From Bacteroidota bacterium (GTDB lineage Bacteria; Bacteroidota; Bacteroidia; B-17B0; Aurantibacillaceae), in assembly GCA_030684395.1 (NCBI GenBank), contig JAUXTT010000043.1, forward strand, positions 1 through 46,890: 46,890 bases of DNA, in the 5' to 3' direction. A program made the position numbers and the translations under genes. The first letter of the stretch is position 1. Each line of letters opens with the position of its first letter. Below the pieces are notes generated by a model, which ran no database searches, was not told where the DNA came from, and saw only the letters and a list, made by a program, of their open reading frames with translations. Below, piece after piece: positions 35,545 to 38,703 of the stretch.

Positions 35545-35636
35545 ATAACAAAAATACACTATCTATAGGCAGATTTCCGCAATTAGTTACATAAGGATTA
35601 ACAAGAAGATGTGAATAGCGGGAAAGTGGTGAGTTT

Positions 35637-35742
35637 TAACACAGAGAGCGCAGAGGCAAAAGAGTTTCACAGAGTTTTTTAACGCTTTAAATAGCCTCCT
35701 CTCTGTGTAACTCATAAAACTCAGTGTTCTCAGTGTTGAAAA
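35637..35742. repeat. ACACAGAG inverted repeat, copy 4
   Basis: AACACAGAGAGCGCAGAGGC on the left; CTCAGTGTTCTCAGTGTTGAA on the right (partly), with GAGTTTCACAGAG and CTCTGTGTAACTC inside. It lies 3 bases after the stop codon of the CoA-transferase subunit B gene and may end that transcript. Confidence 0.75.
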
Positions 35743-35744
35743 GA

Positions 35745-36401
35745 CTATATCACCATCTCGGGCACGTCGCCCTCCACGATCAGTTTACCTGCTGTAGCTT
35801 TTCTAATGTCTTCAACGCTCACGCCCGGAGCTCTTTCAACTAGTTTAAAACCGCCTTCAGGAAGCACATCTAATACAGCCAACTCGGTAACTATTTTTTT
35901 AACGCAACGAATGCCTGTTAAAGGCAAATCGCATTTAGGAAGGAGTTTAGATTCACCCGCTTTGTTTACGTGCTGCATGGCAACAATGATGTTTTTTGCA
36001 GAGGCTACCAGGTCCATTGCTCCACCCATTCCTTTTACCATTTTTCCCGGAATTTTCCAGTTCGCAATATCTCCGTTCTCACTTACTTCCATTGCACCTA
36101 AAATAGTAAGATGTACTTTTTGAGCGCGGATCATTCCGAAACTCAAAGCCGAATCAAAAATAGAAGAGCCGGGTAACAGCGTTACCGTTTGTTTTCCTGC
36201 ATTTATTAAGTCAGCATCTTCTTCGCCTTCAAAAGGAAAAGGGCCCATTCCAAGAATTCCATTTTCAGATTGCAATTCAACATTTACACCTTCCGGAATA
36301 AAATTAGCAACCAAAGTAGGGATACCAATACCAAGGTTTACATACATTCCGTCTTTTACTTCTTTTGCAATTCTTTTTGCGATTCCGTTTTTATCTAACA
36401 T
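35745..36401 (-). CDS. scoB: 3-oxoacid CoA-transferase, subunit B
   Basis: A 218-aa subunit of the heteromeric succinyl-CoA:3-ketoacid (or acetate:acetoacetyl) CoA-transferase. The catalytic Glu is E46 in QSENGILGMGPFP. MYVNLGIGIPTLVANFIP and the NWKIPGKMVKGMGGAMDLV loop are also typical. It transfers CoA between acyl groups with a glutamyl-CoA intermediate, used in ketone body or short-chain fatty acid metabolism. Subunit A lies upstream (36908-37606), but a foreign four-helix gene separates them. The start ATG lies 9 bases beyond AATTTGGAAATT repeat DNA. Confidence 0.93.
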   Translation of the reverse strand: MLDKNGIAKRIAKEVKDGMYVNLGIGIPTLVANFIPEGVNVELQSENGILGMGPFPFEGEEDADLINAGKQTVTLLPGSSIFDSALSFGMIRAQKVHLTILGAMEVSENGDIANWKIPGKMVKGMGGAMDLVASAKNIIVAMQHVNKAGESKLLPKCDLPLTGIRCVKKIVTELAVLDVLPEGGFKLVERAPGVSVEDIRKATAGKLIVEGDVPEMVI

Positions 36402-36408
36402 ATCTTTT

Positions 36409-36445
36409 AATTTGGAAATTAATCAATTTGAAAATTTGGTAATGA
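36409..36445. repeat. AATTTGAAAATTTGGTAAT repeat, left flank of the S23 gene
   Basis: AATTTGGAAATT and then CAATTTGAAAATTTGGTAATG on the plus strand. It encodes the last six residues (PNFQID) and the stop of the four-helix-bundle gene. The matching inverted copy is at 36875-36910. Confidence 0.65.
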
Positions 36446-36799
36446 TTTAGTTCTCGTTTTAGAACTGGCAATGATCTTCGAAAGAATTTTATTAATGGAA
36501 TCTATTTGTTCCTGTAATTTTCCTGGATTAGGGTAATTTTTTGGATGATGACAAAGCATTAACCAATATGTTGTTTCATCCGCTTCTTTAGCTGCAATTT
36601 TCATTTTATGAATGAAGTCCGCCTTACTCTCCGCGTTCTGAGCCTCCCTTACATTTGCGCCAATTGAAGTTCCAGAACGAAACAATTGATTTGCCATATT
36701 GTATCGCCTTTTACTTTCCAGTAATTCAGTATATTCAATAATTGCCAATGCAAACTCAAAAGTTAAATCTACGATCACGTTTTTTTTATCACTTCTCAT
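36419..36799 (-). CDS. Four-helix-bundle protein (S23/IVP family)
   Basis: A 126-aa protein of the S23 / 23S rRNA-intervening-sequence family: VIVDLTFEFALAIIEYTELL, then LFRSGTSIGANVREAQNAES, KADFIHKMKIAAKEADETTY, WLMLCHHPKN. The family forms a pentameric four-helix bundle, is related to the Avd accessory protein of diversity-generating retroelements, and in other bacteria is encoded within rRNA intervening sequences. Here it lies between subunits A and B of a CoA-transferase, an operon normally uninterrupted, and is bordered by inverted copies of the AATTTGAAAATTTGGTAAT repeat. Its C-terminus (PNFQID) is translated from the repeat. I infer a mobile unit; the mechanism and host function are unknown. 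Confidence 0.88.
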   Translation of the reverse strand: MRSDKKNVIVDLTFEFALAIIEYTELLESKRRYNMANQLFRSGTSIGANVREAQNAESKADFIHKMKIAAKEADETTYWLMLCHHPKNYPNPGKLQEQIDSINKILSKIIASSKTRTKSLPNFQID

Positions 36800-36839
36800 A
36801 AAAGCATTTTTAAATTATTTATTTCATTTTCAATAAGCC

Positions 36840-36910
36840 CAATTGAAAGTTAATCTTCAATCTGGTAATACCCCATTTTCAAATTACCAAATCAGCACAT
36901 TACCAAATTA
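36840..36910. repeat. AATTTGAAAATTTGGTAAT repeat, right flank of the S23 gene
   Basis: ATTTTCAAATTACCAAAT (36875-36892) and ATTACCAAATTA (36899-36910) are inverted to the left flank; a related direct copy AATTGAAAGTTAATC...CTGGTAAT lies at 36841-36869. The stop codon of subunit A is the last TAA of the repeat. Confidence 0.6.
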
Positions 36911-37606
36911 CTTTTTCCTAACAGTCCTCTGCTCAATCCTCTTCTCGTAATTACTTCCCTGGAAAATACGATGAACATAAATCCCCGGTGTGTGAATTTG
37001 ATCGGGAACCAATTCTCCCAATGGAACCAAATGTTCTACTTCGGCAATGGTAATTTTTCCTCCCATCGACATAGGTTGATTAAAATTTCTTGCTGTTGAA
37101 CGGAAAATTAAATTTCCGGCTGAGTCACCTTTCCATGCTTTAACGATTGCGAAGTCAGCTTCAAAAGCTTCTTCCATCAAATAATCTCTGCCTTTCCAGT
37201 TAATGATCTGTTTACCAATTGCAACCTCTGTTCCAACACCTGCAGGAGTAGGGAAAAATGGAATGCCATAACCTGCCATCATACAACGTGTAGCCAAAGT
37301 GCCTTGTGGAACAAGATCAACTTCCAACTCACCACTCAACATCTGACGCTCAAATTCAGCATTCTCTCCCACGTAGGAAGAGATCATTTTTTTTATTTGT
37401 TTTGTTTGAAGTAATAATCCTAAACCAAAATCATCTACACCCGCGTTGTTGCTAATACAAGTAAGATTTTTGGTTCCTTTTTTTATAAGTGCAGTGATGC
37501 TGTTTTCCGGAATCCCGCATAATCCAAATCCACCCATCATAATGGTCATTCCATCTTCTATTCCTTTTAATGCTTCTTCAGCATTTGCTACTAATTTATT
37601 GATCAT
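36908..37606 (-). CDS. scoA: 3-oxoacid CoA-transferase, subunit A
   Basis: A 232-aa partner of ScoB. It carries the CoA-binding GGFGLCGIPENSITALIKKG signature near the N-terminus (~25-45). FPTPAGVGTEVAIGKQIINW and the segment EEAFEADFAIVKAWKGD are typical. It would be co-transcribed through the inserted S23 gene into scoB (gap 109 bp, then 17 bp), unless the AATTTG repeats interfere. Confidence 0.94.
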   Translation of the reverse strand: MINKLVANAEEALKGIEDGMTIMMGGFGLCGIPENSITALIKKGTKNLTCISNNAGVDDFGLGLLLQTKQIKKMISSYVGENAEFERQMLSGELEVDLVPQGTLATRCMMAGYGIPFFPTPAGVGTEVAIGKQIINWKGRDYLMEEAFEADFAIVKAWKGDSAGNLIFRSTARNFNQPMSMGGKITIAEVEHLVPLGELVPDQIHTPGIYVHRIFQGSNYEKRIEQRTVRKK

Positions 37607-37721
37607 AAAAATTTAGTTTGATTAAAGCGATTCAAAAATAATCAATCCATCGACAATAGACGATATTATTGGAGGATTTTTATAAAGGAAAATTTGGGGT
37701 TTCTGCCTTTGGCAGTTTTTT

Positions 37722-37852
37722 TGGCCGCGGATTTTCGCGGATTACGCAAATTTTAAATTTTTGAAACATTTAGATTTCTGGAGATAAATTTTATATAACA
37801 AAAGCTATGTAATCATATATCTGCTAAATTCGCGAAAATCTGCGGCTAAATT
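37722..37852. repeat. CCGCAGATT-type inverted repeat, copy A
   Basis: TTGGCCGCGGATTTTCGCGG at the left pairs imperfectly with CGCGAAAATCTGCGGCTAA at the right over ~130 bp. It is the same family as 42029-42132 and the fragment at 24271. It is preceded by the hairpin CTGCC-TTT-GGCAG and a T-run (37703-37720). Confidence 0.7.
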
Positions 37853-37857
37853 AAAAC

Positions 37858-38703
37858 TTAATTCTGCGTGATTTTTTTACGGATAATGCTGATCTTATCG
37901 TCAATGTCTTTAAACATCTCCGGATCTAACTCGGCTTTTTTGTCAAGGGCATTGTATTTTCCGCTTAATTCCTCGAAAGGAGTTTGTAGAGCCCTTAATT
38001 CGTCGTGAACATACTTTGTGTCTTCGCTGGCCGGATAACCTTCCATTAAAGCGATCAATTCCTTTAAAGAAGATTTTTGTTTGATCAACTCTTCGGTAAT
38101 GGCTCTGCTTTTACTCAATCTTGCCAGTTTTACTGATATATAAGTTCCTTCGATCCATCCACCTGCAACTAAAAGTGCTGAAGAATGCGCACGTTGGTTC
38201 TCTCTTAAAAAACGATCAGCTTGCTCAAACGATTTTGAAATGATATTTAATAAAGAATCTCTGTTCTCTTTGTTGGCATCAATTCTGTCAGTTGTTTTTT
38301 CATCAAATACGCCACTGATACCTAATCCAGTACATAATTGATTCACGCACTTTAAGTACAGCATACTTTCCTGTGTTTGTTCGAAAGTACTGGTATAACT
38401 TAGATCTGTACCGTAAACACCTAAATTCAACGCTTTGTAATCGTCGGTGCTGTATGTTTTGTACTTATCCGGATCGTTTAATAGGGAAGCATCGTATTCA
38501 AGTCCTGCATCCTGAACCATTTTTGTAATTTCATTGGTGCCTGGAACCGAATTAAAGATGTTTTGAGCGTTCGCTTTTACTTTGATGTCTATAACCTGCG
38601 TAGTGTCTGTTTCTATATCATCATTGTTATCCGGTTCAGATGAACAAGAAAAAAACAAGGGTAACAAAGCGATGGTTAGTATTCCAAAAACTATTTTCTT
38701 CAT
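37858..38703 (-). CDS. Hypothetical lipoprotein, helical
   Basis: A ~281-aa lipoprotein: MKKIVFGILTIALLPLFFSC ends with lipidated C20 and an acidic linker (SSEPDNNDDIETDTT). The frame starts 13 codons earlier, but that extension is unconserved. The remainder is almost wholly alpha-helical, with LNLGVYGTDLSYTSTFEQTQ and LLVAGGWIEGTYISVKLARL; this arrangement is seen in uncharacterised Bacteroidota lipoproteins. No catalytic motif. It stands alone downstream of bioF by ~130 bp on the same strand. Confidence 0.75.
   Translation of the reverse strand: MKKIVFGILTIALLPLFFSCSSEPDNNDDIETDTTQVIDIKVKANAQNIFNSVPGTNEITKMVQDAGLEYDASLLNDPDKYKTYSTDDYKALNLGVYGTDLSYTSTFEQTQESMLYLKCVNQLCTGLGISGVFDEKTTDRIDANKENRDSLLNIISKSFEQADRFLRENQRAHSSALLVAGGWIEGTYISVKLARLSKSRAITEELIKQKSSLKELIALMEGYPASEDTKYVHDELRALQTPFEELSGKYNALDKKAELDPEMFKDIDDKISIIRKKITQN

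Follow-up and report, generated by a model that had tools for sequence, protein, structure and literature searches.

This locus raises the question of why a gene of the S23 family, whose members are also annotated as 23S_rRNA_IVP or four helix bundle proteins, should lie between scoA and scoB, the genes for subunits A and B of 3-oxoacid CoA-transferase, and whether the repeats around it belong with it. The window, by which we mean the whole stretch of 46,890 nucleotides analysed, is contig C34 of the source genome (G000), a 4.87-Mb draft. Open reading frames and family profiles place the genes in the order scoA, S23, scoB on the minus strand, bearing out what the first-pass annotation of this DNA had stated: scoA occupies positions 36908..37606 (TIGR02429), the S23 gene, which encodes 126 aa, positions 36419..36799, and scoB positions 35745..36401 (TIGR02428). 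The S23 product matches both PF05635 (E 5.7e-22; 78.4 bits against a cut-off of 33.8) and TIGR02436 (E 5.5e-27; 94.1 bits against a cut-off of 24), PF05635 being the sole Pfam match in the reading frame of the unit. Compared with the core GxxRxxxSxxxNxxE given for the S23/IVP family in an excerpt of PMC3936711, it retains RxxxSxxxNxxE at R41/S45/N49/E52, with Q38 replacing the leading G.

Two short arrays that face inward border the gene. The 5' (upstream) array, at 36874..36909 on the minus strand, abuts scoA, the stop codon of which (TAA, 36910-36908) opens it, and consists of degenerate 8-nt units that read AATTTGGT/AATGTGCT/GATTTGGT/AATTTGAA on the minus strand; arrays of the same type occur at 13 other loci of G000. 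The 3' (downstream) array, at 36408..36443 on the plus strand, is inverted with respect to the first, takes in the end of the S23 coding sequence with its stop codon, and has its far end 6 nt short of the scoB start. An exact 19-mer, AATTTGAAAATTTGGTAAT, at 36425-36443 (plus strand) encodes in its minus-strand reading ..PNFQID and the S23 stop TAA (36421-36419), and a pattern search found a second copy in the window, matching at 16/19 positions, at 36867-36885 on the minus strand. Two finer points of the first-pass annotation, namely that one repeat copy supplies the PNFQID end and stop of the S23 gene and that the scoA stop lies in the other, were therefore correct. In the best ungapped register the two arms (36408-36443 and 36874-36909) agree at 24/35 positions, and the units, which show an 8-nt step by eye, are degenerate, unlike those of the strongly tandem plasmid arrays described below. 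The local inverted-alignment score of the arms is 21, which is not beyond that of swapped flanks (p 0.25), so that the locus by itself is no proof of an inverted pair; the claim that inverted repeats border this S23 gene holds in that the arrays do face inward and the pattern is general in Bacteroidota.

Other inverted repeats were seen by eye near the three genes. One lies upstream of scoA, at 37720-37860 (GCGGATTTTCGCGGATTA .. CGCGAAAATCTGCGGCTAAA), and its motif also appears in the scoA-scoB spacer of G001 (L144); another, CACAGAGAGCGCAGAGG .. CTCTCTGTGTAACTC, at 35636-35740 between scoB and the next downstream gene, looks like yet another family of intergenic elements.

The generality of the border arrays was measured in a sample of 41 genomes, 36 of which had a PF05635 match. 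From 154 S23 matches, by per-genome counts, we took 118, mostly the better-scoring, and 116 were usable after a filter on frame and flank length; the 250 bp on each side of each gene were then compared by local inverted alignment, with flanks swapped between genomes as the null. Border arrays were detected at p<0.01 for 69 of the 116 genes and at p<0.05 for 88, the median score being 31 compared with 18 for the swaps. After addition of the 80 nearest named S23 loci, 174 of 196 loci had enough flank for the test, and a score of at least 30 was obtained at 111 of these 174, compared with 0/174 for control stretches 750-1000 bp away at the same loci and with 6/81 when the downstream neighbour gene was used as the centre. 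The 80 named loci alone gave p<0.05 in 26 cases, under a harsher swap null, the loci being largely of one array type. Upstream flanks were strongly tandem at 39/188 loci, mainly with a period of 8 (23 loci) or 7 (13 loci), against 2/188 controls, and none of four 23S motifs (a search with no positive control) was present in the 196 S23 loci. S23 genes and inverted border arrays co-occur far beyond chance; repeats of the same design do flank many other S23 genes, and their absence there, which would have spoken against the first proposal, was not what we found. The association is real and general, and mostly unexplained. The S23 genes themselves are under purifying selection, with dN/dS values of 0.04-0.18 in 10 of the 11 pairs with finite dS; the remaining pair gave 0.53 at a dS of only 0.013, and four further pairs were saturated.

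At these S23 loci the 5' array starts at a median of 1 nt past the upstream stop codon (n=64; 54 within -30 to +15), a median of 7.5 nt separates the 3' array from the downstream reading frame (n=58), and both neighbours are codirectional for 102/113 S23 genes compared with 49/61 other genes at the same loci, a rough control that indicates a modest preference. In the 126 elements scoring at least 30, C is scarce on the sense strand of the 5' arrays (6.3% versus 19.5%), and G is scarce in the 3' arrays (6.2% versus 21.6%). This bias favours pairing between the arms and so lends some weight to the main rival explanation, in which the element acts as an RNA-level intervening sequence: the arrays would pair in the polycistronic transcript, RNase III would excise the S23 part, and the scoA and scoB messages would thereby be split. 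There is a precedent in the rRNA intervening sequence of Coxiella, which, according to an excerpt of PMC4990558, has an S23 reading frame, complementary ends and heptamers and is cut by RNase III, and in the minimum-energy RNA fold calculated for the locus in the window the two arrays do pair with each other. The pairing is weak, however, with a z-score of only -1.33 and 13/100 shuffled sequences folding equally well, the window arms being identical at only those 24/35 positions; and the mismatches between arms of the 126 elements are G-U no more often than A-C (151 versus 176, p 0.18; 34 versus 54 when counted by element), which leaves selection for an RNA stem unsupported. We consider the RNA-stem mechanism unlikely.

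The repeat also occurs elsewhere in G000. With up to 3 mismatches the 19-mer matched 33 times in this genome, against 14 times for the reversed control pattern, and the exact 14-mer core had 7 occurrences, with none for the control and between 0 and 4 in each of 40 relatives. On a loose criterion, an inverted pair was present at all 13 of the non-window loci that had a copy with at most 2 mismatches, and at one of the six loci with 3-mismatch copies only; 12 of the 13 array loci are intergenic and 10 lie between codirectional genes. By eye, arrays standing alone include those at accB-accC and dnaJ-grpE, and when the solo arrays of G000 were searched for S23 remnants, only chance matches of 21 nt turned up. 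Five S23 genes, none of them within a solo array, are present in the genome, at the sites miaB / sigma-54 regulator, sdhA/sdhB, pdh E1 alpha/E2, gmd/fcl and scoA/scoB; their border repeats, which differ from gene to gene by eye, reach p<0.05 for only two (the miaB and gmd-fcl sites). The sdhA/S23/sdhB copies of G000-G002 (L010, L104, L105) had no clear arrays, with scores of 14-19, and this arrangement, found in three genomes of one genus, is possibly an immobile, kept copy. The same three genomes have inverted arrays at accB-accC (L025 in G000, L285 in G001 and L284 in G002), that of G002 being of a different type by eye, which could mean either that the array changes fast or that insertion at this junction has happened more than once.

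Such arrays without an S23 gene, of which there are many, agree with a second rival, namely that the arrays are host or simple-sequence repeats (products of slippage, binding sites or parts of other repeats) which spread by themselves into junctions and that S23 is their passenger. The array types of two relatives point the same way: the AATTTG-type array at accB-accC in G001 is absent from the three S23 genes of that genome, and G002, a 66% complete genome, has a solo array type unmatched by any of its own three, both of which argue against a strict link between array and S23. So do the S23 pairs of at least 55% identity within one genome, since the arrays were clearly alike in only two of eight (87% and 81%), the other six scoring 15-22. 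Against this stands the observation that, across genomes and sites, array similarity rises with S23 relatedness, with exceptions. For S23 genes in different genomes and at different sites the mean array similarity climbs from 17.0 at less than 35% S23 identity to 23.7 at 55-60%, 26.5 at 65-70% and 29.0 at 70-80%. Within the 41-genome sample, unrelated S23 genes of the same genome had a mean of 17.4 (n=182), compared with 21.9 for related genes (at least 60% identity) in other genomes and at other sites (n=46; p 1e-13, the pairs being non-independent), an effect that is clear but small (Spearman 0.17). The subfamily to which the window S23 belongs is found mostly with AATTTGAAAAT-like arrays, both at scoA-scoB and elsewhere, examples being those of Mucilaginibacter, Salegentibacter and Flavobacterium.

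The genome G004, in which one S23 gene was detected, bears on both sides of the same argument. The 14-mer of its S23 arrays, AAAGTTGAAAGTTR, has 63 matches there, some of them overlapping within one array, and no more than 3 in any of the 40 other genomes, so the array type that has been amplified is that of the only S23 gene detected, which is not what would be expected of a passenger. (The reversed control of AAAGTTGAAAGTTR gave 48 matches in G004, since the tandem array is matched by the reversed pattern too, and genomes were compared instead.) Among the 43 loci fetched, 24 had an inward-facing pair, none an outward-facing pair, and 19 no inward pair, some of these being cut by contig ends; the last figure suits arrays that spread on their own, whereas the constant inward orientation of the pairs does not. 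At four loci on four contigs (L302, L305, L310 and L320) we found the same 122-124-nt 5' part of the S23 gene. These fragments match the full gene at 92-93% identity, break off at one and the same point and have substitutions in common, but their far flanks are unrelated. We read these copies as internal-deletion derivatives that spread after the deletion, in the manner of MITEs, and the dispersal of copies that themselves carry a truncated S23 is again difficult to reconcile with a passenger role. On the other side, a second repeat, GTGAGGGATGC, adjoins the arrays at 10 of the 43 loci (L300-L342), including the truncated L302 and L310, and further adjoining sequence is common, in pairs, to the truncated copies, so that part of the spread in G004 may belong to a larger repeat. 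Taking these points together, we think it quite unlikely that S23 merely rides on arrays that spread without it.

The history of the scoA-scoB site was then read from the same genomes. scoA was found in 35/41, and 31 scoA loci were read; in 17 of them scoB followed in order within the stretch, the other 14 being uninformative on the site. S23 lies between the two genes in four of the 17 informative genomes (G000, G008, G038 and G039), and scoA-scoB without S23 occurs in G001 and G002, of the same genus as G000, with spacers of 64 and 73 nt, and in G003, with 41 nt. By eye, the G002 spacer holds an inverted array of another type, and in G004 a solo array of the type that matches the S23 arrays of that genome follows scoA. 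A similar comparison could be made at a junction that we named by eye as hisB-hisH, where G009 has an S23 unit and G015 has none, with flanks 96 and 97% identical, the G015 junction (L040) having a different inverted repeat instead (GTCAGTTCGAGCGTAGTCGAGAACGC .. CGACTTCGCTCGACATGAC). At dnaJ-grpE, where G000 has an array, G001 and G003 have none and that of G002 is of another type; in G036, two S23 units of 87% protein identity (dN/dS 0.10) lie beside tRNA-Arg genes with different anticodons. The presence of S23 at a junction thus differs between close species. The scoA-scoB sites without S23 that the first-pass annotation had suggested looking for do exist in the same genus, but the short target duplication that was expected with them was not found: the S23-less sites at scoA-scoB and hisB-hisH yielded neither a target-site duplication nor a clean empty site, being too diverged or occupied by another repeat, and no exact insertion event was seen among the compared sites.

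Conservation of the order scoA-S23-scoB over long distances would have told against insertion, and here the outcome is divided. This order is seen again at 26 of the 80 nearest loci, the other 54 lying elsewhere, with sufB-sufC, by eye, as the site in two Flavobacterium loci. On the S23 tree, which is built from few columns and in which the bootstrap is not settled, the scoA-S23-scoB loci are partly a Flavobacteriaceae cluster, and the site label requires 10 changes (24.2 when shuffled), at least 4 of which are forced by well-supported branches; this suggests some vertical keeping together with several gains or losses. Purely vertical descent was considered and explains part of the distribution, namely the Flavobacteriaceae cluster, but would still need the 10 changes. 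L202, from a record titled Bifidobacterium breve, has an S23 that groups with Flavobacteriaceae on this tree and is probably from a mislabelled metagenome bin. The sdh and pdh junctions point to sites that have been used more than once: alongside some closer pairs, S23 genes found there in different genomes are 22-39% identical or have no identity that can be detected. That S23 is a domesticated member of the operon, aiding ScoA and ScoB in assembly or in the balance of translation, is very improbable, because, for all that the recurrence of scoA-S23-scoB in the nearest loci, its Flavobacteriaceae cluster and the purifying selection on S23 would suit such a role, most of the nearest relatives (54/80) are not at scoA-scoB, the same-genus G001 and G002 have the two genes without it, and the family also sits in sdh, pdh, gmd-fcl and fad-type pairs, at hisB-hisH (by eye) and among cas genes.

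Beyond the Bacteroidota genomes we studied plasmids, hand-picking 22 of 42 listed S23 hits from Cyanobacteriota, Spirochaetota, Bacteroidota, Chloroflexota, Pseudomonadota and Gemmatimonadota. Inverted border arrays with a score of at least 30 were present at 18 of the 22 loci, compared with 5.8% of swaps; the misses were Chlorohelix (Chloroflexota), Azospirillum (Pseudomonadota), one Nostoc and Picosynechococcus, so that the positives come from four phyla. The upstream array was strongly tandem at 14 of the 22 loci, with period 7 in 13 and period 8 in one (for example TAATTCG and GGAAGTC). Placement is looser on plasmids, with 12 of the 19 S23 genes that have both neighbours annotated lying between codirectional genes. 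At four loci, on cyanobacterial plasmids, S23 lies among cas genes: between cas2 and cas1 on the opposite strand in L343 (border array score 61), between cas6 and cas4 in L355 and L356 (56 and 50), and between cas10 and cmr3 in L363 (29); an excerpt of PMC3936711 reports 18 IVP genes in cas loci. On the Dolichospermum plasmid pAfl69 (L353, 27313-33642), CGAATTA heptamer arrays also occur inside coding genes around S23, namely those for a helicase, a hypothetical protein and a DNA methyltransferase, so that the arrays there are not confined to the S23 borders. A search for S23 on phages with one query gave no match.

The closest known kind to the unit formed by S23 and its arrays is the rRNA intervening sequence. 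The intervening sequences of Coxiella and Leptospira share with the window unit the protein family and the inverted ends, and in Coxiella tandem heptamers precede the S23p start (excerpt of PMC4990558). The same excerpt cites the view that these sequences are parasitic or selfish, and an earlier proposal of a role of the reading frame in mobility (Ralph and McClelland 1993). There are also differences: rRNA intervening sequences sit in 16S or 23S rRNA genes, whereas the window unit lies between the protein genes scoA and scoB; the ends of the unit are arrays of degenerate units; S23 is here under purifying selection, whereas decay of S23p is reported for Coxiella (excerpt of PMC4990558); and dispersed copies that are truncated or have no S23 occur here. 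The passages on IVP in excerpts of PMC10910872, PMC5524665 and PMC8700078 leave this reading unchanged.

The first-pass annotation had likened the layout to a unit of the REP/RAYT or MITE type, with a gene related to Avd of diversity-generating retroelements, and this interpretation is partly supported. As in MITEs, the units are short and dispersed with inverted ends, and there are internal-deletion derivatives of a coding unit: S23-less copies with inverted ends were found at 13 loci of G000 (on the loose criterion) and at 24/43 loci of G004, and internal deletion was seen in G004 only, not in G000. Unlike MITEs, they have arrays of 7-8-nt units as ends, no recognised transposase and no target duplication seen. 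The arrays at other S23 genes, the dispersed copies and the truncated copies of G004 thus favour the MITE half of that comparison, and the REP/RAYT half is not supported. REP/RAYT elements are similar as short intergenic repeats with genome-specific amplification and a small cognate gene between them, but the gene here is S23 and not a Y1/HUH transposase. Diversity-generating retroelements have a reverse transcriptase, whereas the only reading frame of the window unit is S23 and its neighbours are scoA and scoB, although homology between Avd (4DWL) and PF05635 (2GSC) has been suggested (excerpt of PMC10053308). Membership of either group is not supported, since the reading frame matches only PF05635 and the unit contains no reverse transcriptase. 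Nor was co-occurrence with a reverse transcriptase constant at the level of the genome: RVT_1 was found in 18/41 genomes compared with 36/41 for S23, and dependence on such an enzyme was rejected as a standing requirement.

The tandem heptamers of the plasmid loci recall repeats already described in other bacteria. Those of cyanobacteria, heptanucleotide tandem repeats, go by the name STRR. Heptamer repeats have also been described in Xanthomonas (GGGAATC) and in Nostoc (GGGGA(C/T)T), both in an excerpt of PMC4692102, and in Beggiatoaceae, Cyanobacteria and Bacteroidetes (TAACTGA), for which the authors saw no mechanism of transmission (excerpt of PMC4679880). Like the S23 arrays, they are tandem 7-nt units, many of them beside start or stop codons (excerpts of both papers), and for X. 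campestris 70 convergent pairs are given (PMC4692102, excerpt), a species from which an S23 structure exists (2gsc, XCC0516); the Nostoc GGGGA(C/T)T repeats are reported in the same excerpt to be rarely paired, unlike the S23 arrays. The word S23 is absent from the main texts of PMC4692102 and PMC4679880, as is 0516 from that of PMC4692102, and among open-licence PMC papers, by title and the start of the abstract, we found none that ties S23 to such arrays outside rRNA. The known heptamer repeats of other bacteria may be derived from S23 units.

Our best reading is that the S23 gene and its arrays form a unit related to rRNA intervening sequences, placed here between protein genes and accompanied by MITE-like derivatives. 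With moderate confidence we take S23 and the inward-facing arrays on either side of it to be a single small mobile unit of about 500 bp; that the S23 protein binds the arrays and serves the movement of the unit is our inference. On this reading the unit sits between the scoA stop and the scoB start and favours operon junctions. As to mechanism, S23, which in a solved relative is a homopentamer of four-helix bundles, would bind the cognate 7-8-nt units at both ends and then bring the ends together, and would be needed, with host or other enzymes, to copy or move the unit and its MITE-like derivatives. Insertion at operon junctions would do little damage, since stop codons come with the array and the promoter of the operon allows the unit to be read.

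A broader proposal goes further, and we offer it tentatively, as a possibility that we would not yet expect to hold in full: that S23/IVP units are a mobile-element class of their own, in which both ends, arrays of 7-8-nt units, are recognised by a small helix-bundle protein that is pentameric and lacks a transposase domain; that they have spread, with S23-less derivatives, into gene junctions in several phyla; that they are the source of the heptanucleotide repeats of cyanobacteria, Xanthomonas, Beggiatoaceae and Bacteroidetes; and that S23 genes have hitch-hiked into CRISPR-Cas operons and are not themselves cas genes.

The finding joins two questions, the role of the S23/IVP protein family and the origin of short arrays of 7-8-nt repeats. 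Should the units prove to be mobile and to be served by S23, they would constitute a mobility system without a recognised enzyme, which raises the question of how the unit moves. The amplified array type of each genome should then match a present or former S23 gene, and the proposal, if true, would be a warning against reading S23 as part of the host operon in which it is found, be it a CRISPR, sdh or sco operon.
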